From a virus, in IMG/VR virus record IMGVR_UViG_3300037258_000095, positions 1 to 53,470 of that record: a stretch of 53,470 bases of DNA; one strand, given 5' to 3'. This document shows positions 30,211 to 53,158 of the stretch, in pieces. How positions within the stretch are numbered: position 1 is the stretch's first letter; every line of letters begins with the position of its first letter. Under the pieces are notes generated by a model that saw nothing but the letters and a program-made list of their open reading frames with translations, was not told the DNA's origin and searched no databases. The translations under genes were made by a program, and so were the position numbers.

Positions 30211-31541
30211 TTACGCTTCCGTAGCGTCAAATCTGGCGCGAATATCCGTCACGTATTCCGCTTCGCGTTCGCAAAGCACGGCTTTGAAGCCTTCGCGCTG
30301 CGCTGCTATGCCGGTCGTGCCCGAGCCGGCGAACGAGTCAAGCAACGCACCTCCTGGCGGCGTAATAAGACGCGCGAGCCATTGCATGAGCGCGATCGGC
30401 TTTACAGTCGGGTGCTTGCTGCCGGCGCGATCGGCCTTTGATGCTTTGGCGCTGTAAAAGAAACGAGCTGCGGAACCGCCACCATCTGCGTAACCGATTT
30501 GATTCGTTCCTGCCTCTTTAGCGTGCAACCATTCACCCTCTGCCCGAACACCGCGCTTGTATGACGCCCCGCTACCCGCCGTCACTGGAAACGCCTCAAT
30601 CACTTCCGCCGAGCCGTCATGCACCACGTTAGCGGGCCAACGACCTTCGTCAGAATCGCCAGATATTTGTCTTTCGCGCGCTACATCGTTTAATGTAGCG
30701 CGCGTGTTGATACCCTGCGTAACTTGCGGCTTCCAACCCGGAATCCTACACGCTCCGATATTCAACGCACCCGTTCGCCAGCGCAACACGTTTGCGGCAA
30801 CTGTGCCTTCGGACAGCGGCTTGCGCGCCAGCGCAACACGTTTGCGGCAACTGTGCCTTCGGACAGCGGCTTGCGCGCCAGCACGATCGGTTCAAACGCA
30901 GGTTTTAGCGCTGTACCGAAACCGTCAAATTCACGGGCGGCGGCTGTGGCGGGAATGTCTGCGATTTGTCGCTGCATGTACACCGGACCGTCGCGACCCG
31001 ATGCGTGGATTCCTTCGCCTTGCGTGCGCCCGTGACCATTGCGAATATCTCGGACCTTTTCGGACCCCGTAATTTCACGCTCCGCGCCCAATTCCTTGTC
31101 AATGAATTTCGAAACGTCCTGCGACTTCGGAAAGCCGGTGCCGTAGCACCACATGAGCGAATCTCGAATTTCAAAACCCGCATCCTCGATTGCGCACGCC
31201 ATACGATGATACCCGCGCGAAGCGCCGAACGCCGCAACGAACGCACCAGGCTTCAATACGCGGAACACTTCGGCCCAAAATTCGACAGACATGGCCGTTT
31301 CGCCAGTGTCCCATGTTTTCCCCATGAAGCCGGCCGACGCGCGCATGTACGCTTCGTTGCCCTTGGCTGGCGCCGCACCCATCGAACCGAATCGTTTGAC
31401 CACCGACACGAGCGCGTACGGCGGATCTGTGCAGCATGAATCCAGCGAATTATCAGGCAACACGCGGAGCGCATCGCGACAATCGGCGTGGAAAAGGGTA
31501 ATGTCGGGTGAAAGCGTGTAGGTGGTGTTTTTGGTGTTCAA
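30211..31541 (-). pseudogene. DNA methyltransferase (beta-type order) split by a duplication
   Basis: The first frame (31541-30762) has TDPPYALV near residue 38, the motif IV of N6-adenine or N4-cytosine methyltransferases, and FGASRGYHRMA. The second frame (30789-30211) has KHPTVKPIALMQWL and LDSFAGSGTTG, the X/I motifs. Motif IV before motif I is the beta-class order. The 50-bp duplication at 30776-30882 shifts the frame; removing one copy rejoins the halves through ANVLRWRTGALNIG. It is therefore inactive here, unless restored by repeat loss. Confidence 0.85.
30776..30882. repeat. 50-bp tandem duplication within the methyltransferase
   Basis: Positions 30776-30832 are identical to 30826-30882, a shift of 50 bp. 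The 7-bp CGCCAGC lies at both borders and could have seeded slippage. The two copies have no differences, so the event is recent, or an assembly artefact. Confidence 0.93.
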
Positions 31542-35193: not shown

Positions 35194-35366
35194 TACGCAC
35201 CCGCCGCGACTTCGCGCGCCATGCCGATCGACGGACACACGCACGGGTCGCCGCTGCGTGTCACGCCATAAACGTAAAACTCGTCGGCCGCGTTGTCGCA
35301 CCAAATCTCGATGTTGCCGTGTTTCTCAATGAGAGTCATGGTGTGCCTCGTTTGTCCGTTCGTCAT
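35193..35366 (-). CDS. 57-aa hypothetical protein
   Basis: Starts at ATG 35366, 6 bp after the -10 TACTGT, so the transcript is predicted leaderless; a second ATG at 35339 is possible. LIEKHGNIEIWCDNAADEFY is a plausible beta pair, and three Cys are present. First gene of a six-gene operon of tiny overlapping frames. Confidence 0.6.
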   Translation of the reverse strand: MTNGQTRHTMTLIEKHGNIEIWCDNAADEFYVYGVTRSGDPCVCPSIGMAREVAAGA

Positions 35367-35372
35367 GGGTGC

Positions 35373-35419
35373 ACAGTAGCACCGCGATGGGTACAGTCAA
35401 CGGAAAAGCGCACTGTCAA
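35373..35419 (-). promoter_or_regulatory. Tandem promoter of the leftward small-gene operon
   Basis: Two overlapping units on the minus strand. The proximal: TTGACT (35395-35400), 16 bp, TACTGT (35373-35378), 6 bp to ATG 35366. The distal: TTGACA (35414-35419) with CTGTAC 17 bp on. AAAATTACGTG precedes the distal -35, as at 25743 and 35708. Confidence 0.65.
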
Positions 35420-35850
35420 CACGTAATTTTATTGCGTAATAGGTCCGGTTCGGCCCCGGCCGGCACGCGCCGAGCAAGTGAACGATTGAACAGTTGCCAG
35501 GTTTTGAAAGTTCACAGGTCGGAACGCCGGAAAACCCTTATATATTATATATATTCTCTCTTAAGTGAACTATTGAACTATTGAACAGTGATATTTAATT
35601 GGAGCCAATAGAATCGAACTTACGTGTTGACACTCTATAATCGTAGAGCTCGGACGAAATGTTTGTCGAACAACTGTTCAATCGTTCACTCGTTACAAAA
35701 TTACGTGTTGACGCGATCTTAGCCAGTAATAACAACGACATTTCGAATTTGCGTCGAGTGAACAATCGAAATCTGCCGTTTGTTCAATAGTTCACTTTTG
35801 GGACGTTTTGGGCCGATTTCGTCAACATATAACTTTTATACGCAAGTAGT
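35420..35850. repeat. Iteron-like repeats with AT-rich segment; candidate origin or control region
   Basis: No gene. Copies of GTGAAC-NATTGAAC: plus at 35478-35496, 35565-35591 (with an extra TATTGAAC) and 35758-35770 (degenerate); minus at 35667-35689 (same 19 bases as the first) and 35777-35795; a partial minus copy at 35505-35514. An AT-only run of about 20 bp lies at 35539-35554. TTACGTGTTGAC occurs at 35621 and 35702. The region separates the divergent early operons, as origins and master control regions do. Confidence 0.6.
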
Positions 35851-35861
35851 CAAAATAGATG

Positions 35862-35889
35862 TTGACAGTAAACAGTTGGATGCTACGGT
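35862..35889 (+). promoter_or_regulatory. Operator-promoter, predicted leaderless
   Basis: TTGACA (35862-35867), 16-bp spacer GTAAACAGTTGGATGC, -10 TACGGT (35884-35889), then 7 bp to ATG 35897. Exact dyad GTTGACAGTAAAC. Confidence 0.78.
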
Positions 35890-35896
35890 GCGCGTT

Positions 35897-36190
35897 ATGG
35901 CAATTCATCGTCAACCCGAGCCGACGTATACCGTCAGTTATGCACACGATCGACGCGCGCACCGACACCGCTGCCGTTGTTGCAACCGGATTTTGAATGC
36001 CGGCGAGCGCGTCGTTATGGCAAAGATGCTCGGTCACAAAACATGGGCGGTTCATGATGACTGCGCCGACAAATTAAACGGTGACTCGGGATTTACCTGG
36101 CGTGATTCGTTGACCGCATGGGGCACCGCGTATTTGCGCGCGATCGGCTACAAACTTCCGCTTTTGCCGATCGAATTGTCGAGGGGATAA
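35897..36190 (+). CDS. Zn-binding hypothetical protein
   Basis: 97 aa from ATG 35897. HRHRCRCCNRILNAGERVVM then TWAVHDDCAD form a Cys/His zinc site of the RCxxC-x-I-x-GE...W-xx-HxxC kind. The C-terminal helix (FTWRDSLTAWGTAYLRAIGY) is amphipathic. First rightward gene from the gene-free region; probably an early regulatory or host-interaction protein. A longer frame starting at 35780 crosses the promoter and is not used. Confidence 0.72.
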   Translation: MAIHRQPEPTYTVSYAHDRRAHRHRCRCCNRILNAGERVVMAKMLGHKTWAVHDDCADKLNGDSGFTWRDSLTAWGTAYLRAIGYKLPLLPIELSRG

Positions 36191-36465: not shown

Positions 36466-37344
36466 ATGCTCAAATTTAAAGTGTTCAGTCGCTGGTCCGG
36501 CGATTTGCAATTCACCGCCGATATCGACACGACGGAAAACGAGTCGACTTCGTGGAAATTACGTCTCGCTGTCCAATGGGCCGTTAACGCGAAAGCGGAC
36601 CTCGGCGGTGCGAACCTCCGTAGTGCGAACCTCGGCGGTGCGGACCTCGGCGGTGCGGACCTCCGTAGTGCGGACCTCGGCGGTGCGGACCTCCGTAGTG
36701 CGAACCTCCGTAGTGCGAACCTCGGCGGTGCGAACCTCCGTAGTGCGAACCTCCGTAGTGCGAACCTCCGTAGTGCGAACCTCGGCGGTGCGGACCTCGG
36801 CGGTGCGGACCTCCGTAGTGCGGACCTCGGCGGTGCGGACCTCCGTAGTGCGGACCTCCGTAGTGCGGACCTCGGCGGTGCGAACCTCCGTAGTGCGAAC
36901 CTCGGCGGTGCGGACCTCGGCGGTGCGGACCTCCGTAGTGCGGACCTCGGCGGTGCGGACCTCCGTAGTGCGAACCTCCGTAGTGCGAACCTCGGCGGTG
37001 CGAACCTCGGCGGTGCGAAAAATCTCCCCCTGGCAGTCTTGCGCGACATTCGCGTCGATCTATTCGACATTCTGTTGCGAGCGCGCGAGGAAGTTCCCGG
37101 CCTGCTTGCGGCTTTGCGTGCCGGCGATATCGACGGCTCGACATATCATGGTCCGTGCGCGTGCCTGTGCGGAACGATCGCTAATGTGCGCGGGGTGTCG
37201 GTCGATAAACTCGATTTCCGCGACAGCTCGCGGCCGGCGGAACGCTGGTTTTTGGCAATTCGAAAAGGTGACACGCCGGAGAACAGCGAACCGGCGAAGA
37301 TCACGGAAAAGTGGATCGAGGAATTTCAACGGTTGGCGGCGTGA
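36466..37344 (+). CDS. Pentapeptide-repeat protein
   Basis: 292 aa. Residues 1-43 are a small beta domain (KFKVFSRWSGDLQF...). Residues 44-183 are 28 unbroken pentapeptides of only four types (ADLGG, ADLRS, ANLGG, ANLRS), which should fold as a right-handed quadrilateral beta-helix. The C-terminal domain (about 190-292) includes YHGPCACLCGTIANVRG and DSSRPAERWFLAIRKGD. Pentapeptide proteins such as Qnr and MfpA mimic DNA and bind gyrase; a similar role is possible. GGAACG precedes ATG 36466. Confidence 0.92.
   Translation: MLKFKVFSRWSGDLQFTADIDTTENESTSWKLRLAVQWAVNAKADLGGANLRSANLGGADLGGADLRSADLGGADLRSANLRSANLGGANLRSANLRSANLRSANLGGADLGGADLRSADLGGADLRSADLRSADLGGANLRSANLGGADLGGADLRSADLGGADLRSANLRSANLGGANLGGAKNLPLAVLRDIRVDLFDILLRAREEVPGLLAALRAGDIDGSTYHGPCACLCGTIANVRGVSVDKLDFRDSSRPAERWFLAIRKGDTPENSEPAKITEKWIEEFQRLAA
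36595..37014 (+). repeat. 28 x 15-bp tandem repeat
   Basis: Units are GCG-[AG]AC-CTC-then CGTAGT or GGCGGT, with no silent variation at all. Such DNA-level identity implies recent expansion and easy copy-number change. The array opens several spurious frames on both strands. Confidence 0.97.
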
Positions 37345-37926: not shown

Positions 37927-39141
37927 CTACGCCGCTACAAGGTCCGGCAATGCGTCGACGCGACCGAGCAAATCGGTTGCCAGTGGTTTAAGTCCGAGCC
38001 GTTGTGCGCAAATTGCGGCATATTCAGCGTTTAACTCTATTCCGATGCAGTTGCGACCGTGTTCGGCAGCGACAAGGCCGGTCGTGCCGGCACCGAAAAA
38101 TGGATCGAGCACTGTGCCACTCGGGGGGCAGCCGGCCAGAATGCAAGGGCGTATAAGGTCGGGCGGAAACGTCGCGAAGTGGGCGCCTTTGAACGGGCGA
38201 GTAGGAATTGACCACACCGAGCGCGGCTGCCGTAGTTCGCTTGCTTCGCCGCTATCCGCCAGGCTTTTTAGAATTTCATTCGGTCGGCGTGATCGGCTTC
38301 GTAGGACAACGAAGCCACTTTCGTATGCGTCTTGCTTGGCGCCCCCGGCTTGCTGGTGAATGGTCGGTTGTGCGTAACGCTTACGACTCGACTCCGCAAT
38401 CGGTTCCTTAATCGCATCCATGTCGTAGTGATACCGCGCCGATTTCGAAAACATATAGAGCATTTCATGTGCCGGCGTCGTACGATCAGTGACGCTGATA
38501 GGCATGGGATTCGGCTTGTGCCAAATAATTTCGTCACGCAACCACCAACCGTCGGCTTGAAGCGCAAGCGCAACACGAGCGGGAATCATGAGTCGTTGTT
38601 TAGTGGCTAATCCAAATTCGCGACGTTTTCGCGAGTCATTATCACCGTGTAATTGCGATACGTGTTTGCCGCTGGTTGATCCGCCCCATTTACCTTGCTG
38701 CGAATAACTATCGCCCAAATTCAACCAAAACACACCGTCAGATCGTAACACCCTACGACATTCACGAAACACGGCAACCATTTGCGCTACGTACGCGTCG
38801 GGTGTTGCTTCGAGTCCGATTTGTTCGTCGTGATACGATGCGCCACAGTGAACGCATGTACCACCCTCGCGCCATCGAGCCGCTTTAAGGCGAGCGGCGT
38901 TACCCGCGCCAGCTTTTGTAAATGCTTCGGCGGAGCCGGCAGCAACGGGTGCAGACTGAGTCGTATAATAACGCTCGCTACCATAGTGTTGGCAGTCGAG
39001 TTTACCGTCTAGCCACTTACCCGTGCCGTAATTTCTTAAACCGAAATACGGCGGTGACGTGACGATGCAGTGCACCGATTCGCTGGCAATATCTGCCAGG
39101 CGTGAACGCACGTCGCCTATAAGCAACATGGTGTTACGCAT
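37927..39141 (-). CDS. DNA methyltransferase, SPPY type
   Basis: 404 aa from ATG 39141 (or Met at 39129, 8 bp overlap with the primase stop). CIVTSPPYFGLRNYG is motif IV near residue 30; LDPFFGAGTTGLVAAEHGR is motif I near 365, so the order is beta-class. SPPY suggests N4-cytosine methylation, though N6-adenine cannot be excluded. A CVHCGASYH segment (about 120) with Cys and His may bind zinc. No restriction partner nearby, so it probably shields phage DNA from host restriction or marks it. Confidence 0.9.
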   Translation of the reverse strand: MRNTMLLIGDVRSRLADIASESVHCIVTSPPYFGLRNYGTGKWLDGKLDCQHYGSERYYTTQSAPVAAGSAEAFTKAGAGNAARLKAARWREGGTCVHCGASYHDEQIGLEATPDAYVAQMVAVFRECRRVLRSDGVFWLNLGDSYSQQGKWGGSTSGKHVSQLHGDNDSRKRREFGLATKQRLMIPARVALALQADGWWLRDEIIWHKPNPMPISVTDRTTPAHEMLYMFSKSARYHYDMDAIKEPIAESSRKRYAQPTIHQQAGGAKQDAYESGFVVLRSRSRRPNEILKSLADSGEASELRQPRSVWSIPTRPFKGAHFATFPPDLIRPCILAGCPPSGTVLDPFFGAGTTGLVAAEHGRNCIGIELNAEYAAICAQRLGLKPLATDLLGRVDALPDLVAA

Positions 39142-41743
39142 TGGTGCGAATTTCCACGCGCGGGCGCCCGTCCGACGTGCTGCCGACCATGTAACGAATA
39201 CCCGAACGCACGATCTGCGCCGGCAGCATCTTGTCCGGGGCGCGCACCCACGTACGCGTGCGCTTTCCACTGATTAGAATTGCCTCGCTGCGGAAGCCGA
39301 GTTTTTTCATCAACGCACCGCGCGCCGCAGTCGCTCCGCCATGACGCAGGCCGGCAATGTGCGTCAGGGTCACGAGATCCGACGCGATGATAAACGCCAC
39401 AGGCGTATGCGCGGTTTCGCCGAACCAATCCTGCAGCATGGTTTCGATATCGCTGGCCGATCGTGCTGCCTCTTGCCGTTCGGCGGCTTCGCCCCATACT
39501 TCGCGAGGCAACTCGAACGTATGACCAGCGGTTTGTTGCGCCGCAGCTTCGCCGACAATTTGCTCGATATTCTCGCGCAGCCATGCAAGGTCGATTTCGC
39601 TGTCGATTTTTACGGGGAGGAATCGACGATTGCCGGTCGGGTCGACTAGCGGCTCGTCGTCGTTTGTGGTGCCGATGAAAATGTTGCGGCGTTTGCGCTC
39701 GGATACGGCACGCGCATAAGCGGTACGGCCGGCGTCGACCGTGCGGCTAATCATCGCCTTAACGTGGTTCGGATTAGCGGCGCCGCGCATACCCATTTCG
39801 CCGATCTCGACCACCAGCTTGCCGGCGAGCGATAATACCAGCTCTTTCGATGCGTCACCGAGCAGGATCGAATCGGAAAACCACTCGTCGAAGGTGGCAA
39901 GCAGTTTCGCGAGCGTCGATTTGCCCGATCCCTGAAATCCGTACAGCACGGCCATGGTGTCGTGCTTGCAACCCGGATGCCGGGCGCGGCGCACCATGCC
40001 GCCTATGATGTTGCGGCTAACCGCCTGGTGGTAAAGATCGCACGGAACGCTGCACGCCCTCGAAAGCCATATAGATAGCCGCGGCGTGCCGTCCCATGCG
40101 GCTTGCAGGGAGGCAAGCCGATCAAGTACCGGGTCGTGTGTGTTTTGCTGCGCGAGCGCGAGCAGCGATTCCCAAAAAAAATCTTTTCCCGGCCGGAAGC
40201 GCGTTTTGGTGCGGTTGCCGCGCGTACGCAATTTGGCGACTACGGAGTCGTCGATATATGACCATTCCGACCATTGCAGATCGCCCGTGCCGCCTTTGAT
40301 TTCGGCACGTTCGAGCCACGCATTCCAACGGATTGCACAGCCGAGAATTCCAAGGAACACAGCAACGTTGTCGCTGTTGTCCGGCTCGGGTAAACCTTTC
40401 GTGTCGTATTGCCAGTCGTCTTGCGGCACGAATTCGCGCTCGACCTTATCGGAAAGCGCGGTGGCGGCGAGTTTGATTTTTGCGTCGGGCCAGATGCAGC
40501 CGAGCGTACGGACGCGTCGAGCAACGGAATCGAACGTATCGCGATGCACGAGCGACAGCACTGCGGCGGCGTCTATGACGCGGCTGTTTTTAAAATTCTT
40601 AGGCGTTTCCGCCATCGCTACAATGCGGCTTATTGTTTGTTGCAGCGACGTGTAAAGTCCATGGCCGTCAAGCGAGGCGGGCAACGAGGGATAATCGGAT
40701 GAGAGCGGCCGGCTCGGCACGTCGGAAGTCGCCGCTAAAAATTCGTCGAGTATCGGTTGACAAAAGCCGGTGAGCACCGCCTGTCCGGCGAGCATCGGCA
40801 TTCCGGTCGGGCCGGGCGTGGCGGCTGGTAATGGGCTGGATAAACCAGCTCCGGCGGCGGCTGCTATCGCCGCCACGCCGTCGAAAAGAGCAGCCGCGGA
40901 TTTGCGTACGCTCCCGCGCCAGCCGAGTTTATGTGCGCGATCGAGGAACGTTGAAAGCGTGACGCTCGACCCGTCGGGGTTGGCGGCGAAACTTTGCCAC
41001 TTCGTCGCTTCGGTATCGCTGTCGACCGTATCGTCATGCGACAGCGCCCAAAGTTCGCGGCCAGCGTCGCCGAATTCCAGTTTGAGCGCCATGCCGAGCT
41101 GAAACCATGACTCATAGTCGGCGAACGCGTCGCGCTCGGCGAGCCACCGAATGAGTGCTGCAACGTCGCCTTTGTCGCGGCTGCCGGGTGCCGGACTTGC
41201 CGCATTGGTGCGATTTGTTGCGCGTTTGCAATGGCTTATGAGCGCTTCCGGCGCGGGATAGGGCGGCTCGGTGGACAGGAATAGATACGGCTTGTCGTCA
41301 TAAGTGCTACCGGCAGCAACAACGTAGCCGTTGCCGGCGCGGACGTTTATCAGTTTTTTCACGGCGTCCGGTTGTCGCAGATCCGGCAAGTCACACGCGA
41401 AATAAACATGCCAGCCGCCGCGAGCAGACTGTACGTGCGGTGCGAACGGCGCAACGTTCCATGTGGCGCACAACTCGCACCAGGCTTGCCACGCGGCGTC
41501 ACGCCCGGCGGTGTGCGTGTCGATATCAACGATAATCAGGTTCGACTTGCCGGCGACCACGCCGAAATTGCAATCAGGGTGGCTCGTGCGCCACGCTTGC
41601 CATGCGGCGGGATCTGTCGAGCAATCGTTGACGAACGAACCGACAATGCCCGTGGGATTCTTTTGTCCGGCCGGAATCGGAAATAGGGCGGCGCCGATGG
41701 TCGCGTAATAGGCGAGTGCTGTAGTGGTGTCTTGATCGGTCAT
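39134..41743 (-). CDS. PrimPol - VapE-like replicative helicase
   Basis: 869 aa. Residues 1-190 are a bifunctional primase-polymerase domain (ALFPIPAGQKNPTG, LIIVDIDTH with the DxD acids, SARGGWHVYFA). A PriCT-type domain follows (about 205-275, ESWFQLGMALKLEFGD). From about 595 is a VapE-like SF3/AAA helicase: YGFQGSGKSTLAKLL Walker A, ELVLSLAGKLVVEIGEMG Walker B region, and FIGTTNDDEPLVDPTGNRRF sensor. It primes and unwinds phage DNA. ATGA overlap with the C5 methyltransferase. Confidence 0.93.
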   Translation of the reverse strand: MTDQDTTTALAYYATIGAALFPIPAGQKNPTGIVGSFVNDCSTDPAAWQAWRTSHPDCNFGVVAGKSNLIIVDIDTHTAGRDAAWQAWCELCATWNVAPFAPHVQSARGGWHVYFACDLPDLRQPDAVKKLINVRAGNGYVVAAGSTYDDKPYLFLSTEPPYPAPEALISHCKRATNRTNAASPAPGSRDKGDVAALIRWLAERDAFADYESWFQLGMALKLEFGDAGRELWALSHDDTVDSDTEATKWQSFAANPDGSSVTLSTFLDRAHKLGWRGSVRKSAAALFDGVAAIAAAAGAGLSSPLPAATPGPTGMPMLAGQAVLTGFCQPILDEFLAATSDVPSRPLSSDYPSLPASLDGHGLYTSLQQTISRIVAMAETPKNFKNSRVIDAAAVLSLVHRDTFDSVARRVRTLGCIWPDAKIKLAATALSDKVEREFVPQDDWQYDTKGLPEPDNSDNVAVFLGILGCAIRWNAWLERAEIKGGTGDLQWSEWSYIDDSVVAKLRTRGNRTKTRFRPGKDFFWESLLALAQQNTHDPVLDRLASLQAAWDGTPRLSIWLSRACSVPCDLYHQAVSRNIIGGMVRRARHPGCKHDTMAVLYGFQGSGKSTLAKLLATFDEWFSDSILLGDASKELVLSLAGKLVVEIGEMGMRGAANPNHVKAMISRTVDAGRTAYARAVSERKRRNIFIGTTNDDEPLVDPTGNRRFLPVKIDSEIDLAWLRENIEQIVGEAAAQQTAGHTFELPREVWGEAAERQEAARSASDIETMLQDWFGETAHTPVAFIIASDLVTLTHIAGLRHGGATAARGALMKKLGFRSEAILISGKRTRTWVRAPDKMLPAQIVRSGIRYMVGSTSDGRPRVEIRTNA

Positions 41744-43907: not shown

Positions 43908-44351
43908 ATGAGAACAATACAGTGGGATTTGCGTTTTATTGCGTTAGCCGCGCTGGTGGCGTCGTGGAGCAAAGATCCGAGTACGCAGACGGGCGCGGTA
44001 ATTACGCGACCGGATAAAACCATCGCCAGTGTCGGGTACAACGGTTTTGCTCGTGGATGCAACGACGCACAGGAACTCTATGCGGATCGTCCGACCAAAT
44101 ATGCCCGCATAATCCATTGTGAAATGAACGCAATTTTATCAGCACGCGAACCGCTGCAAGGCTTCACGCTCTACACCTATCCGTTTCTTACGTGTGATCG
44201 TTGTTCGGTCCACGTCATTCAAGCCGGAATCAAACGTGTTGTAGCGCCTGTTTGTCCGCCGCATTTGTTAGAGCGTTGGGCGGATACGTTCGTGCGCGCT
44301 CGTGCTTGTTACACGGAAGCAGGCGTAACCATAGACGAGATCACACAATGA
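43908..44351 (+). CDS. dCMP deaminase
   Basis: 147 aa. IIHCEMNAILSA holds the catalytic HxE, and YPFLTCDRCSVHVIQAGIKRVV the PxxxC-xx-C zinc ligands (Pro displaced: YPFLTCDRC). Converts dCMP to dUMP for dTTP synthesis. ASWSKDPSTQTGAVI is the usual start of the family. ATGA overlap with the DUF2800 gene. Confidence 0.92.
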   Translation: MRTIQWDLRFIALAALVASWSKDPSTQTGAVITRPDKTIASVGYNGFARGCNDAQELYADRPTKYARIIHCEMNAILSAREPLQGFTLYTYPFLTCDRCSVHVIQAGIKRVVAPVCPPHLLERWADTFVRARACYTEAGVTIDEITQ

Positions 44352-45460
44352 CAAACGAAACCGCAGCACACGCCATTTACGCGCCGTCGAGCGCTCATCG
44401 CTGGTCGATTTGCACCGCGAGCGCTCCGGCACTTGCCGCATTACCCGAACAAGAGGAAGGCGAGGAAGCCGCCGAGGGCACGGAAGCGCACGAGGAAATC
44501 GAGCGCATATTGGGACCATGGGCGTCGTCGAATTATACCGTTCCGCCGGGTGCTCTCGACCCCGATCACCCGGCCGCGTACGGTATTGCATTGCTGATCG
44601 ACTACGTGCGCAAATTACCAGGCGGTCGTCTGTGGGTAGAACAACGCGTCCGGCTCACCGATGATATTTGGGGCCGCTGTGACGTTGCGCATTGGCATGA
44701 GGAATCGGCCACGCTTACGATCGTCGATTACAAAAACGGCTACGTCGACGTTGATGCTGTCAAAAACGAACAGCTCCGCATATATGGCGCTAGTTCGATC
44801 TATACGCACAAACTACCCGCGAAATGGGTGCGCTACGTGGTCGTGCAGCCGAATTCGTTTATGCCGGTGCCGCGCGTCAAGCAGTGGATCGAAAGCTCCG
44901 ACGCGCTGTTTGCCTTTGCCAACGAAGTCGCAAAGGTTCCGGCGTTGCCGCTCGACCAGCGTAAATTCGTATTTGGCTCGGCGCAGTGTCGCGACTGCCG
45001 CATGTTCGGCCTATGCCCGCCGACGAAAGACTTGCTGCTGCATCTTTCGACCGCGCTCAATAAGCCGGCGGAGGAAGTGACGCCCGAAAAAGCGGGATTG
45101 TTCCTGGCAGCGGAAAAGCCGATCGAGCACTGGTTCAAAGCGCTCTACAAATCGACGACCAAGGCTGCACTCGGCGGCGCATCGGTGCCGGGCATGAAGG
45201 TCGTAACGTCGACCAAACACCGCGAGTGGAAAGACACTGCCGCAGCGCGCGACGCCGTGGTCGCTGCGTACGGCGTCGTTGCGTTGTCGCCGCCGACGCC
45301 TGCGCAAGCGGAAAAACTCGGCATGCCCGAAGCCGACGTAACGAAGCTGTCGCATAAGCCGGACGGTGGCCCGGCGCTCGCGTTCGAATCGGACAAGCGG
45401 CCGGCCTTTGTGCGCAAAACCGGCGCGGAAATGTTTGCGGGAGTGGGAGGGGCAAAATAA
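44348..45460 (+). CDS. DUF2800 PD-(D/E)XK nuclease
   Basis: 370 aa from ATG 44348. APSSAHRWSICTASAPALA is the family start; GTEAHEEIE and the later VDYKNGYVDVD (Asp ... ExK-like DYK) form the nuclease core; CRDCRMFGLCPP suggests an Fe-S or zinc Cys cluster as in RecB-type nucleases. Found with DUF2815 in many phage replication modules, probably as a recombination exonuclease. Confidence 0.88.
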   Translation: MTNETAAHAIYAPSSAHRWSICTASAPALAALPEQEEGEEAAEGTEAHEEIERILGPWASSNYTVPPGALDPDHPAAYGIALLIDYVRKLPGGRLWVEQRVRLTDDIWGRCDVAHWHEESATLTIVDYKNGYVDVDAVKNEQLRIYGASSIYTHKLPAKWVRYVVVQPNSFMPVPRVKQWIESSDALFAFANEVAKVPALPLDQRKFVFGSAQCRDCRMFGLCPPTKDLLLHLSTALNKPAEEVTPEKAGLFLAAEKPIEHWFKALYKSTTKAALGGASVPGMKVVTSTKHREWKDTAAARDAVVAAYGVVALSPPTPAQAEKLGMPEADVTKLSHKPDGGPALAFESDKRPAFVRKTGAEMFAGVGGAK

Positions 45461-45542: not shown

Positions 45543-46358
45543 GTGACCGAAGTTGTGAAACACAAGTCGCAGCGTAGCGAATCGACGAACACCCCCGAAG
45601 TCCGCGGCGCCTATCCGTGGCTTTTCAAAAAGCGCACCAAAACCGCCGCCGGTCGCGATCTGAAATTGCCGCGTAACGACGTGACGCTGCTTTTTCCGAA
45701 GTTGAATATCGACCCGACGCAGTGCGCGAACTACGCCTATCTCGCGAAACATTGCATGGACGCCGCCGCGAAGGCATGGCCCGGTATCGGCTGGCCGCAA
45801 GGCGGTCACTGGCCGATTCAGGACGGCGACGCCCCCATGAAGCCAAAGGCTCCGGTTCCGGGGCAAGCCGCAACGCCGGTCGATCCGAACAAATACCCGT
45901 GGCGCCGCGGTAATTGGATTATCGAAGTCACCAACTATCTCGAAACTGGCGTCCGTGTGTGCGTCATGCAAAACGGGCAACCCGTCGAGATTCCGGCAGA
46001 AACGGTTAACGGCGTTCGCATGTTCAAGTCCGGCGATTACTGCATCGTGAACTTGTGCGCGTACACCTTCCAAAACGAAAAGTTCGGCTGCAACTTCGGT
46101 TTCGAAGGCGTCTTGTGGACGAAGCCCGGCGAAGCGATCGGCTCGTCTGGTCCCAAGTCGGCCGCGCAAATGTTCGGTGCCACGCCCGCACCGGCTGGCG
46201 CTCCGTTACCGACCGGCCCGGCACCGCAGCCGCAAACCAATGCGGCACCAGCGTACGCACCGCCGCCTCCCGCGCCAGCTCCGCGAGCACCTGCGCCGCC
46301 CGCGCCTGGTGCTCCGCCGCCTGCATCGCCAGCCCTGCCGCCGTTCCCGCAGCCGTAA
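45543..46358 (+). CDS. DUF2815 ssDNA-binding protein
   Basis: 271 aa from GTG 45543 with AGGAG 7 bp upstream. RGAYPWLFKKRTK, DVTLLFPKLNI and WIIEVTNYLETGVRVCVMQNG then FKSGDYCIVNL match DUF2815, related to T7 gp2.5-type OB-fold proteins. The last 80 residues are a Pro/Ala tail, longer than typical; acidic tips usual in SSBs are absent. Coats ssDNA in replication. Confidence 0.87.
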   Translation: MTEVVKHKSQRSESTNTPEVRGAYPWLFKKRTKTAAGRDLKLPRNDVTLLFPKLNIDPTQCANYAYLAKHCMDAAAKAWPGIGWPQGGHWPIQDGDAPMKPKAPVPGQAATPVDPNKYPWRRGNWIIEVTNYLETGVRVCVMQNGQPVEIPAETVNGVRMFKSGDYCIVNLCAYTFQNEKFGCNFGFEGVLWTKPGEAIGSSGPKSAAQMFGATPAPAGAPLPTGPAPQPQTNAAPAYAPPPPAPAPRAPAPPAPGAPPPASPALPPFPQP

Positions 46359-46430: not shown

Positions 46431-46871
46431 ATGCGATTTGATCTTGAACAATTCGTGCGCGAAAGCAATCGAATCGAAGGAATTTTACGCGACCCGCTAG
46501 TCGTCGAGATTGACGCACACGCGGCCTTCCTTCGTCTCGAACGCCCAATGACCGCAAATCTTGAATCGTTTGTTTCGAACATTGCTCCCGGCCATCGGCT
46601 GCGCGACGGTTACGGCCTCAATGTTCGTGTAGGCGATCATATTGCACCGCGCGGCTGTCCTGAAATCAGAGAATCGCTAAACGCACTTGTCATGCGCGCC
46701 GGTCACAATCCCGACACGGCATGGCAAATTCACGTCGAGTACGAAATCCTGCATCCGTTTACTGACGGCAACGGACGTTCCGGTCGCGTCCTTTGGCTGT
46801 GGCAAATGCGATCGGCACCTCTTGGTTTCTTGCATCAATTTTATTATCAGACACTTTCGCGGCAGCGTTAG
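46431..46871 (+). CDS. Fic-domain protein with N-terminal inhibitory motif
   Basis: 146 aa with GAAGGG upstream of ATG 46431. The Fic motif HPFTDGNGRSGR near residues 106-117 is complete, including His and the anion-binding GNGR. Near residue 11, SNRIEG fits the [S/T]xxxE[G/N] inhibitory helix, here inside the same chain, as in class II Fic proteins. Fic enzymes AMPylate targets such as gyrase or topoisomerase IV. It stops 2 bp before the polymerase start, a rare position. Confidence 0.87.
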   Translation: MRFDLEQFVRESNRIEGILRDPLVVEIDAHAAFLRLERPMTANLESFVSNIAPGHRLRDGYGLNVRVGDHIAPRGCPEIRESLNALVMRAGHNPDTAWQIHVEYEILHPFTDGNGRSGRVLWLWQMRSAPLGFLHQFYYQTLSRQR

Positions 46872-46873
46872 CC

Positions 46874-48874
46874 GTGCTCAATCTTGACATAGCGGTTTGC
46901 TATGACTGCGAGACGCTGCCAAATGCGTTTACATTAAACGTGGTCGGATTGTATTCTGATCTCGATATGACATTTGAAATTTCGGAATTTCGCGACGACC
47001 GCGAGACATTGCGTGCATGGTTTGAGCACTGGCAAGCGACCAAAACGCCCATGGTCGGATTCAATAACTTAGCGTTTGACTATCCCGTAATTCACGAGAT
47101 TTATTGCAATCCGTATATCACCGTCGCGGAAATTTATTATTTCGCTATGGGGATTATCAACGCATCGTTTGGCGGAGCACGATTTAATGGCGTATGGGAA
47201 TCCGATAGATTCGCTCCGCAAATCGACGTTTATAAAGTGCATCATTTTGACAATCGCGCCAAATCGACAAGTCTAAAGGCGCTTCAATTTAACATGCGTT
47301 CCGAGTCGGTCATGGAAATGCCGATACCGTTCGGCGTACCTGTGACGCGCGAGCAGGTGGACGCATTTTTGATTCCGTATAACAAGCATGACGTGATCGA
47401 AACCAAAAAATTCGCACTTATCAGCATGGATGCGATCAATTTTCGCAATCGGCTAACCGATACACTGCGCGGTGACGTACTGAATTTTAACGATACGAAA
47501 ATCGGTGCAAAAATTCTCGAACAGCGGCTCGGTGACGATGTTTGTTATTTCGACGATCTCGGGCGCCGAGCGCCGCGGCAAACGTTCCGCGAATCAATCC
47601 GGCTCAATGAGATCATATTCCCGTATATTCAATTTCGAGACGCTGAATTCAATCGTATACTTTCATGGATGCGGCAACAGACTTTAACAGCCGACGAACT
47701 AACGGAAAACATTAAAACCAAAGGCGTCTTTACCGGCGTATCGGCAAATGTCGGCGGCTTGGATTTCCATTTTGGAACGGGCGGCATTCACGGCTCGGTA
47801 AGTGCGCAGCGTTTTGCCAGCGACACCGAATACGTTATCTGCGACGTAGACGTAGCGGCGTTGTATCCCTCGATCGCCATAGTAAACAGGCTTTACCCGG
47901 AACACCTTGGCGACGCCTTTGTGCGCGAGTATGCGCAGTTGCCGATCGAGCGCAGCAAGCACGCCAAGGGAACGGTCGAAAACGCGGCGTTCAAACTTGC
48001 CGCGAACGGCACCTATGGCAACAGCAATAATAAATATTCGGTGTTCTATGATCCGAAGTTCACCATGGCGATCACAATCAACGGGCAACTGCTGTTGTGC
48101 ATGCTCGCCGAGCGGCTACTGACGGTCGACACGCTTCGAATTATTCAGATCAACACAGACGGAATCACGTACCGAATCCGGCGCGACCAGGTGCCGCACG
48201 CCGAGTTGATGCAGCAAATATGGCAACGCATAACGCATCTTACGCTCGAACAAACGCATTATTCGCGAATGTGGATTCGTGACGTGAACAATTACGTTGC
48301 GGAAACAATCGACGGTAAATTGAAACAAAAAGGCGCGTATTGGTTCCCTGTCAAATTCCCTGACGACGTGAGCAACGCCAGCCCGCCGGCATGGCACAAG
48401 GATTTTTCCGCGCTTGTGTCGATTAAGGCGGCGGTCGACCACATGGTCAACGGAACTGATATCGAACGGTTCGTGTACGCACATCGCGAACCGTTCGACT
48501 TCATGTGCCGCGCAAAGGTCGATCGCTCGTCGCACTTGTATATCGGCGACAAGGAAACGCAGCGCATAACGCGGTATTACGTGGCTCTTAACGGCGGTCC
48601 CATGCGCAAGGTGTCGCCGCCGATCGGCGAAGCCGGGACGTACAAGCGTCGCAACGGCATATCGGACGCCGAATGGCACGACGTTTTAGGACAAATCAAG
48701 CCCGGCACATGGGACGAGCGAATTCATACGAAAAACAAATCGAGATATGAAACGCGCGAGTTCGGAATCGAAGCCGGATTCAACGTGACCGAATGTAACG
48801 TAGCGTCGCGCTTCGATTTCGCAAACGTGAATTACGAATGGTATATCGAACGAGCGCGAAAGCTGGTGATTTGA
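46874..48874 (+). CDS. Family-B-like DNA polymerase with 3'-5' exonuclease
   Basis: 666 aa from GTG 46874, 2 bp after the Fic stop; starts at 46793 or 46799 would overlap Fic. Exonuclease: VCYDCETLPNAF (exo I), MVGFNNLAFDYPVIH (exo II), YNKHDVIETKKF (exo III). Polymerase: CDVDVAALYPSIAI (motif A), KLAANGTYGNSNNKY (motif B), IIQINTDGITYRI (motif C). Motif C has NTDG in place of DTDS, so one metal-binding Asp is missing. No protein-priming TPR1 insert was recognised. Shorter than typical cellular B polymerases, similar to small phage forms. Confidence 0.85.
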   Translation: MLNLDIAVCYDCETLPNAFTLNVVGLYSDLDMTFEISEFRDDRETLRAWFEHWQATKTPMVGFNNLAFDYPVIHEIYCNPYITVAEIYYFAMGIINASFGGARFNGVWESDRFAPQIDVYKVHHFDNRAKSTSLKALQFNMRSESVMEMPIPFGVPVTREQVDAFLIPYNKHDVIETKKFALISMDAINFRNRLTDTLRGDVLNFNDTKIGAKILEQRLGDDVCYFDDLGRRAPRQTFRESIRLNEIIFPYIQFRDAEFNRILSWMRQQTLTADELTENIKTKGVFTGVSANVGGLDFHFGTGGIHGSVSAQRFASDTEYVICDVDVAALYPSIAIVNRLYPEHLGDAFVREYAQLPIERSKHAKGTVENAAFKLAANGTYGNSNNKYSVFYDPKFTMAITINGQLLLCMLAERLLTVDTLRIIQINTDGITYRIRRDQVPHAELMQQIWQRITHLTLEQTHYSRMWIRDVNNYVAETIDGKLKQKGAYWFPVKFPDDVSNASPPAWHKDFSALVSIKAAVDHMVNGTDIERFVYAHREPFDFMCRAKVDRSSHLYIGDKETQRITRYYVALNGGPMRKVSPPIGEAGTYKRRNGISDAEWHDVLGQIKPGTWDERIHTKNKSRYETREFGIEAGFNVTECNVASRFDFANVNYEWYIERARKLVI

Positions 48875-49960: not shown

Positions 49961-50683
49961 ATGCGAATCCTGCTTATCGAGGATAATGCGCTCGTAGCGC
50001 AAGCGATCGAATTGTCGCTGAAATCCGAAGGATTCAAAGTGTACACCACCGATCTCGGCGAGGAAGGTGTCGATCTCGCAAAGCTGTACGACTACGATTG
50101 CATTCTGCTCGATATCGGACTGCCGGACATGAGCGGTTTCGATGTGCTTGCCCGGCTTCGTGTTGCGCGCGTTCATACACCCGTGATTGTCGTTTCGGGT
50201 TACGCCGATATCGACATTAAGGTGCGCGCTCTTACCGCAGGTGCCGACGACTATGTGACCAAGCCGTTTCACAAAGACGAGCTTGTCGCACGCCTTCACT
50301 CAGTCGTGCGCCGTTCCAAAGGTCACGCGCAGTCGATTATTCAAGTCGGCGATCTCGTGTTGAATCTCGCGAGCAAAACCGTCGAAGTAAACGGACGCCC
50401 GGTTCATTTGACCGGCAAGGAATATCAAATGCTCGAATTGATGGCGCTCCGTAAAGGCGTCACTCAAAACAAAGAGCAATTCCTGAATCACCTTTACGGA
50501 GGCATGGACGAACCGGAACTGAAAATCGTCGACGTGTTTATCTGCAAGCTACGCAGGAAATTGCGTAACGCGTCCGGCGGAATGGAATACATACACACCG
50601 TGTGGGGCCGCGGTCATCACCTGGCCGAACCGATAGAAGCCGCGCCCGCAAAATCGACCGCCCAAGCAAAGGCAGCCGCGTAA
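49961..50683 (+). CDS. ctrA: CtrA-like response regulator
   Basis: 240 aa with GGAACGGAG upstream of ATG 49961. The receiver has LLIEDN at the start, phospho-acceptor Asp51 in [13 protein letters not shown], and Lys in [10 protein letters not shown]. The OmpR-type winged helix includes [38 protein letters not shown] and WGRGHHL; these match Caulobacter CtrA nearly residue for residue as I recall it. The conserved recognition helix predicts TTAA-N7-TTAA binding. It ends in AKAAA, like CtrA's Ala-Ala ClpXP tag. The operon carries it with the integrase. Confidence 0.93.
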
Positions 50684-51735: not shown

Positions 51736-52031
51736 TGCTTTCCCTTACCAATGCGGCCGCACTTATCCCCGGTGCCACGCCCGACACGTTGAAACGTCAT
51801 GCGCGAGCGGGTAGGCTTACGGTGTACCGCACCGGCAAAGCCTATACCACGACCGACGCGGCCATGGCGGAGTTGATTGAAAAGTGCCGCGTCGTTCAAA
51901 AGGACCCCGCCTATGGCTCCGTAAAAAGCGCGCGCCGCGCGTTGCCGCATGGTTCATCCTCGACGATTCACGCCAGCACAGCACTGGACTCGGCGCTCGC
52001 GCGAGCACGACAGACAAAGAAAAAGCGTTAG
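51732..52031 (+). CDS. Excisionase-like protein
   Basis: 99 aa. SLTNAAALIPGATPDTLKRH and ARAGRLTVYRTGKAYTTTDA form a MerR-type winged HTH of the excisionase family. The basic C-terminus (ALARARQTKKKR) could touch DNA. It overlaps the integrase gene by 148 bp, so both come from one message and dosage is linked. Confidence 0.8.
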   Translation: MMLSLTNAAALIPGATPDTLKRHARAGRLTVYRTGKAYTTTDAAMAELIEKCRVVQKDPAYGSVKSARRALPHGSSSTIHASTALDSALARARQTKKKR

Positions 52032-52993
52032 CCGACTATCTGGCCGAAAAGCATACGGTCGTCACGACAAGCGGCAGTCGCGATCCTTCGCAAATTCTTA
52101 TTGACGACGTGCTCGCGCTTTACGCGCGTGACGTGGTGCCGCGCCAGGCTCGCCCCGACGAAACCGTTTCGCGAATAGAGTTATTGCGCGTTTATTTTGG
52201 CAGTAAGCCGTTAGCGGACGTGACCGGAGCAAATTGCCGCGCCTATGCCGCTGGTCGTAGCACGCCGGCAGCCGCGCGCCGTGAATTGGAGGATCTGCGA
52301 GCTGCGATCAATTACCATCGCAGGGAAGGGCTACACGACAAAATCGTATCGGTGGTGTTGCCACCGAAAGCATTGTCGCGGGAACGATGGTTGACGCGTG
52401 CCGAGGCCGCGGCGCTTATTAGCTCGGCGTGGCGATATCGCGAAAAGCAGAATCGATTGTCAACAAATCGGCGCACCAGGCGGCACGTTGCCCGCTTCAT
52501 GGTGGTTGCCCGCTACATGGGGTCGCGAGCGGGAGTTATCTGCTCGGCCTCGATCGAGCCTAAACGCCCTTCCGATCGAGCATGGGTGGACCTGCAAAGC
52601 GGGGTGTTTTACGGGCGCCCAATAGGTCAACGCGCCACGAAAAAGCGACGGCAGACTGTCCGAGTGCCTCTGCCGCTACTGGCGCACATGCGGCGCTGGC
52701 GCGCGCGCGGGCAGCGTTACGTCGTGCAATGGCGCGCGCAGCCGGTCGAGCGCATAGACAAGGCGCACCGGGCCGCTGTGGCGGCAGCCAAGCTAGGGCG
52801 AGACGTGACGCCTCATGTGTGGCGACATACGGTCGCCACCTGGTTGATGCAGGCAGGCGCCGATCCGTGGAAAGCGGCGGGCTTCCTTGGCATGACTGTG
52901 GAGACGTTGCTGCGCGTTTACGGGCACCACCACCCCGATCATTCGGCAGACGTGCACAGCGCTCTTGCGCGCGGCGGCAAACGTGCAGCCTAG
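51884..52993 (+). CDS. int: Tyrosine integrase
   Basis: 369 aa from GTG 51884. PRRSKGPRLWLRKKRAPRVA is the arm-binding start common in alphaproteobacterial prophages. Catalytic residues: Arg in MGSRAGVICSAS, H-xx-R in HVWRHTVATWLM, His in GFLGMTVETLLRVYGHHHPDH and the nucleophilic Tyr in RVYGHH. Core-binding SAM-like domain at about 75-165. Stop is 113 bp before attR. Catalyses att recombination at tRNA-Pro. Confidence 0.95.
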   Translation: MPRRSKGPRLWLRKKRAPRVAAWFILDDSRQHSTGLGARASTTDKEKALADYLAEKHTVVTTSGSRDPSQILIDDVLALYARDVVPRQARPDETVSRIELLRVYFGSKPLADVTGANCRAYAAGRSTPAAARRELEDLRAAINYHRREGLHDKIVSVVLPPKALSRERWLTRAEAAALISSAWRYREKQNRLSTNRRTRRHVARFMVVARYMGSRAGVICSASIEPKRPSDRAWVDLQSGVFYGRPIGQRATKKRRQTVRVPLPLLAHMRRWRARGQRYVVQWRAQPVERIDKAHRAAVAAAKLGRDVTPHVWRHTVATWLMQAGADPWKAAGFLGMTVETLLRVYGHHHPDHSADVHSALARGGKRAA

Positions 52994-53105: not shown

Positions 53106-53158
53106 CCTCGTTCGGGACGAGGGGGTCGCAGGTTCAAATCCTGCCACTCCGACCAGCT
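53106..53158 (+). other. attR, displaced 3' part of tRNA-Pro
   Basis: Exact copy of 75-127 lacking the 5' tRNA half, so it is not a functional tRNA. It is the host's original 3' end, pushed aside by the insertion. Confidence 0.95.

Follow-up and report, generated by a model that had tools for sequence, protein, structure and literature searches.

A candidate iteron-type replication origin between divergent operons of a temperate phage encoding a PrimPol-VapE protein

Origins of the lambda O type and of Rep_3 iteron plasmids consist of direct repeats beside an A/T-rich region, with long iterons and a dedicated initiator. The annotated type 1 repeats of phage P4 are GTGAACAG, arranged in tandem every 9–11 bp, and both ori and crr are required for P4. 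The winged-helix domain of P4 α binds the P4 origin repeats (PMC4234260). In SaPIs and PICIs, the AAA+ initiator helicase, a Rep of the VapE or D5 type, is linked to a primase, iterons flank an A/T-rich segment and the initiator gene has the origin at its 3΄ side (PMC6092414, PMC7581432). Iteron binding in this type of replicon is a function of the Rep C-terminal domain. For AEP–helicase–winged-helix replicators such as pRN1 and phage BIP-1, the use of a large stem-loop lying 3΄ of the gene has been proposed (PMC4234260).

We analyzed a virus contig of 53,470 bases (hereafter, the window, meaning this whole stretch). A 53-bp direct repeat at positions 75–127 and 53106–53158 includes the 3΄ part of tRNA-Pro(CGG) (48–124), and an integrase (51884–52993) adjoins the att repeat at 53106–53158. 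The record is a complete prophage of a temperate phage in tRNA-Pro(CGG), with both ends present, and measures ~53.0 kb once excised. A search for DNA similarity to phage records gave no match. The named genomes carrying relatives are those of Afipia, Rhodoplanes and Bradyrhizobium, which makes a Rhizobiales host probable. The replication block is listed in Table 1; the protein taken as its DNA polymerase has no Pfam or NCBIfam match. The window also encodes a CtrA response regulator (49961–50683; 364 bits against the NCBI equivalog cut-off of 350), of which the relative G006 holds a 59% relative. Since CtrA boxes are not above chance in the phage record, the target of this protein may be the host cell cycle. 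Two overlapping ORFs at 30211–31541 correspond to the two halves of a single 409-aa methylase in L094 (8664–9893), and a local repeat near the break suggests a frameshift or duplication.

Positions 35367–35896 contain no conserved gene, and the flanking genes start divergently at 35366 (minus strand) and 35897 (plus strand). The initial annotation had described about 470 bp without a gene between divergent operons; the arrangement was as described, and the gene-free gap measured ~530 bp. The 400 bp with the lowest G+C content of the record start at 35473 (0.378 versus 0.572). The repeat GTGAACNATTGAAC occurs six times with at most two mismatches in the whole 53 kb, always within 35478–35795, compared with a chance mean of 1.08, and none of 100 shuffles reached six. 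Four copies are exact (35478 and 35565 on the plus strand, 35676 and 35782 on the minus strand), and two are inexact (35573, plus strand, one mismatch, an overlapping copy; 35758, plus strand, two mismatches), in agreement with the earlier count of at least five copies, two of them inverted. The smaller, true unit is a TGAAC half-site repeated in tandem with an 8-bp period, of which the gap holds 11 copies (plus strand: 35479, 35487, 35566, 35574, 35582 and 35759; minus strand: 35510, 35676, 35684, 35782 and 35790). As had been noticed earlier, the repeats surround an A/T-only run, which sits left of the gap centre with three half-sites to its left and eight to its right. Identical tandem 4-mers at a distance of 8 numbered 20 in the gap, compared with 1.4 in shuffles, and the tandem count of the gap at distances of 7–9 was unmatched by any other equal-sized window in the record.

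Table 1. Features of the candidate origin region and of the replication genes in the window
Feature	Position	Strand	Basis
Gap separating divergent operons; candidate origin of bidirectional replication	35367..35896	.	G+C minimum, skew minimum, repeats
TTACGTGTTGACA box, left edge, pointing outward	35414..35426	-	motif search
Iteron pair GTGAACGATTGAACAG, two TGAAC half-sites, 8-bp period	35478..35493	+	repeat search
Single half-site GTGAAC	35510..35515	-	repeat search
A/T-only run TTATATATTATATATATT, candidate unwinding element	35538..35555 (18 bp)	.	record's longest
Iteron triplet GTGAACTATTGAACTATTGAACAG, three half-sites, 8-bp period	35565..35588	+	repeat search
TTACGTGTTGACA box	35620..35632	+	motif search
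Inverted iteron pair	35675..35689	-	repeat search
TTACGTGTTGACG box	35701..35713	+	motif search
Degenerate iteron GTGAACAATCGAAA	35758..35771	+	repeat search
Inverted iteron pair	35781..35795	-	repeat search
TTATATGTTGACG box	35820..35832	-	motif search
Promoter-like TTGACA-N14-GCTA before rightward operon	35862..35885	+	promoter pattern
PrimPol-PriCT2-VapE protein, 869 aa, proposed initiator	39134..41743	-	PF09250, PF08707, PF05272
Solo integrase arm-type DNA-binding domain, 133 aa	42714..43115	-	PF13356; 3ju0/3jtz; conserved
DUF2800 protein, replication block	44348..45460	+	domain match
Probable ssDNA-binding protein, Enc34 family	45543..46358	+	match just under cut-off
Putative DNA polymerase of replication block	46793..48874	+	up to 70% identity in relatives

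A second repeat, TTACGTGTTGACA, absent from the initial annotation, is present at four positions (Table 1), with a weaker copy at 35855 (plus strand). Across 12 phages, the density of TTAYRNGTTGAC boxes was 2.89 per kb in the candidate origin regions, ~140 times that of the remaining sequence (0.020 per kb); they were seen, for example, at 35414–35867 of the window and 14415–14871 of L094. A TTGACA-type –35 element lies inside these boxes, and their upstream part is conserved as well. The boxes may be early promoters or sites for the arm-type protein. Because promoters also lie in the gap, part of it is regulatory.

The cumulative GC skew of the window reaches its minimum at 35309, beside the gap, where its sign switches from minus to plus, and the raw minimum of the relative G010 (14978) adjoins that phage's own gap. 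Among 12 full-length contigs, the detrended minimum was located within 10% of the genome length from the gap in eight (2.4 expected), at a mean distance of 8.9% compared with 25%, and the maximum tended to fall on the far side. Gene direction was separated by a regression on third codon positions in the 12 phages, with orientation as a covariate. The side of the gap had a pooled effect of t = 7.7, which was reached by none of 2000 random placements and was opposite in sign to the effect of gene direction, although the P-values are optimistic because the 12 phages are related. With the same correction, t was 3.6 for the window alone and above 2 in nine of the 12 phages; a clear switch at the gap was absent in G012, L109 and L126. 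GC skew, which had been proposed earlier as a check, is therefore in favor of an origin here with gene orientation controlled.

Two queries, a PrimPol-VapE profile and the polymerase-like protein, were used to gather relatives; most share 40–63% identity in PrimPol-VapE, and they are not independent samples. The 14-bp repeat GTGAACNATTGAAC was found in none of the relatives inspected, where searches with the window motif returned chance matches only, the one inspected falling inside a gene. In the relatives with context, the stretch of lowest G+C content lies 3΄ of PrimPol-VapE at a distance of 1.3–5.0 kb, with the exception of G012, which is also the only one of 12 full-length family contigs in which the region is not the global G+C minimum. 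Each phage has half-sites of its own. These are AGAAC in L109 and TTGAA/TGAAC in L111 and L112; an 8-bp period is seen with TGAAC (L122) and GGAC (L113 and L126), and a 9-bp period with GTAAC (G010) and GAAC (G006 and L114). The letters vary between phages, and the period of 7–9 bp is constant. When nine phages were pooled, identical tandem 4-mers numbered 28 at a distance of 7 (against 11.4), 46 at 8 (against 11.4) and 42 at 9 (against 11.1), each excess being reached by none of 500 shuffles; no other clear excess appeared at distances of 5–16, and the excess within their own contigs was unexceptional for G006, G012, L111 and L112 taken singly. The refuting condition proposed earlier, absence of the repeats from close relatives, therefore has to be applied with caution: the repeat letters are absent in close relatives, but position, period and A/T core are kept with new letters. 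In the pair L111 (9695–12655) and L112 (9968–12658), the PrimPol domains are 66% alike and the middle, AAA and C-terminal parts 92–94% alike; judged from these sequences, the difference appears to be a domain exchange between phages.

VapE phages account for 636 matching records in one collection. We examined 14 from outside the family, the first eight chosen from the best matches and the last six from a spread sample; vir335 and an APSE record were left out. Strong repeats were present 3΄ of vapE in 10 of the 14 (U5, CL31, Pd_22F, NatCom_34192, Gva_AB1, Javan405, NatCom_11578, StAB, phiARI0468-2 and phi20c), and a weak or no repeat signal was obtained at this place in BM127P2, C2_18_80S2P, an Oscillospirales phage and BL94. 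In Pseudomonas phage U5 and Corynebacterium phage CL31, the repeats in the gap 3΄ of vapE are of the GGGACA type. Caulobacter phage BL94 (L180 4033–4690) carries GTAACC repeats 3΄ of its primase, with the same letters as G010 and a weak count.

The proposed initiator carries both PF05272 (E = 8.8e-57) and PF09250 (E = 1.1e-27), and its VapE part matches the solved VapE-like protein 7pds (E = 1.6e-34; ‘similar to D. nodosus vapE’). The model of its C-terminal domain (pLDDT 77) has the order helix–strand–helix–helix–strand–strand, from which residues about 762–838 are probably a winged helix. Comparison of this model with PDB folds gave no significant match (best E = 0.36; winged-helix PadR proteins E = 0.65, TM 0.41), nor did a sequence comparison of the domain with the PDB. 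A profile comparison with P4 α using hhalign was not significant, although the only stretch that aligned is the predicted recognition helix. The gap lies 3.24 kb beyond the 3΄ side of vapE, with methylase, pentapeptide and Zn-ribbon genes in between; the pentapeptide-repeat-like protein (36466–37344) comes from a DNA tandem array that is the strongest repeat of the record.

The locus shares with the SaPI/PICI pri-rep-ori arrangement a VapE-type AAA+ helicase with a primase, iterons flanking an A/T run and a position 3΄ of the gene. Unlike in SaPIs and PICIs, however, the phage is a complete tailed phage, the primase is a fused AEP PrimPol, the candidate origin is not immediately 3΄ of the initiator gene and it shares its gap with divergent promoters. 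Moreover, in contrast to a PICI satellite using a helper capsid, the record has its own terminase and portal candidates, common to G006 and G010. With the P4 ori, the GTGAAC/TGAACAG core is common to GTGAACAG and GTGAACGATTGAACAG, and P4 α, like the initiator proposed here, is a primase–helicase–DNA-binding fusion. However, P4 α has a Toprim primase with D5_N/Pox_D5 rather than PrimPol, PriCT_2 and VapE, and the need for both ori and crr sets P4 apart from this gap. The pRN1 ORF904 type has an AEP primase, a helicase and a C-terminal winged helix (PMC4234260), the last being predicted here, whereas iterons rather than a stem-loop are seen in the Rhizobiales phage family. Neither an initiator gene of the lambda O or Rep_3 type nor long iterons were found in the record. 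By analogy, the gap would resemble a SaPI/PICI or P4 origin in its working, and it is not a P4-type replicon. The known kind to which it belongs is the VapE/SaPI-Rep iteron origin; the distance of 3.2 kb from the initiator gene and the divergent promoters are new here.

The alternative that the repeats serve solely as operators, through which an early regulator controls the divergent promoters, with the origin elsewhere, is in line with the promoter-like elements and dense TTAYRNGTTGAC boxes in a gap separating divergent operons. We consider this very unlikely, since it accounts for neither the G+C minimum and the A/T core nor the skew switch, which is independent of gene direction, and iterons behind vapE also occur in phages whose gap is not divergent. 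Sites for host factors, namely LexA (GTTC-N7-GTTC), CtrA (TTAA-N7-TTAA) or DnaA boxes, are an even poorer explanation that we regard as negligible: the GAAC half-sites are reminiscent of the alphaproteobacterial LexA box, and the phage encodes CtrA, but all three patterns occur at chance frequency across the record and none falls within the gap, and tandem 4-mers at a distance of 11 are depleted rather than enriched. For DnaA boxes, six near matches were found in 53 kb (5.8 expected), none of them in the gap; GANTC is at chance level in the record.

As for the iteron binder, the initial annotation had named PrimPol-VapE, the Zn-ribbon protein encoded at 35897 or a repressor. The Zn-ribbon protein is excluded, because G010, G006 and G012 have the same region and no such gene, and because repeats were not found upstream of the gene in its relatives L005–L011; for the latter reason, the gene is no marker for the region either. 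A repressor is unlikely as the sole role. Another candidate is the solo arm-type protein, which could read the iterons at the origin and recruit PrimPol-VapE. In all relatives with gene context, its gene adjoins that of PrimPol-VapE, with two copies in tandem in G019, and the fold of the protein is that of the arm-type domain found in P4-like integrases (E = 9.7e-5, probability 1.00), domains that bind tandem repeats. We nevertheless find this reading improbable. The protein is absent from U5 and CL31, which still have iterons 3΄ of vapE, and the P4 attP arm repeats (TGCCCCC type) are unlike those of the gap. The window protein is 48–54% similar to that of G010 and 35–37% to those of L111/L112, whereas the window repeats are nearer to those of L112 and L122 than to those of G010 (GTAAC), a weak indication from a small sample. 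The correlation of repeat letters with protein similarity (Mantel tests, 11 phages) was r = 0.31 (P = 0.02) for the C-terminal winged helix and r = 0.37 (P = 0.01) for the arm protein, and both correlations vanish without L111, a member of the near-identical pair L111/L112. It is conceivable, though doubtful, that two readers share the origin, with the VapE C-terminal domain on the fast-changing half-sites and the arm domain on the slowly changing TTAYRNGTTGAC boxes, coupling early transcription to initiation; we know of no precedent for such use of an integrase arm domain at an origin of replication. The C-terminal domain of PrimPol-VapE is the likely binder and is favored over the arm protein, because VapE phages without the latter still have iterons 3΄ of vapE, because SaPIs and PICIs are organized likewise and because of the P4 type 1 repeat.

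Positions 35367–35896 are thus very probably the replication origin of the phage, as first proposed and as judged from sequence: position, composition and the skew switch across 12 full contigs of the family support this reading, as do iterons 3΄ of vapE in unrelated phages. The repeats, composition, conserved position, constant period with changing letters and the skew switch independent of gene direction were computed directly; binding by the VapE C-terminal domain, ring assembly, melting and priming are steps that we infer. We consider it probable that this is a bidirectional (theta) origin of a temperate phage, whose iterons are read by the C-terminal domain of PrimPol-VapE. Excision would turn the integrated genome into a circle, and PrimPol-VapE subunits would bind the tandem TGAAC half-sites through their winged-helix-like C-terminal domain. 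Rings of the AAA+ helicase could then form on either side of the A/T-rich run, separate its strands and travel outward both ways, while the N-terminal PrimPol domain would prime synthesis and the phage polymerase and ssDNA-binding protein would come after.

The same layout is found in ordinary VapE phages infecting bacteria of several phyla, and therefore the origins of hundreds of them may be readable from sequence. In the Rhizobiales family, the initiator–origin pair seems to exchange one set of recognition letters for another with no change in period, location or melting core, so that this family would provide a natural series for studies of helicase–origin co-evolution.
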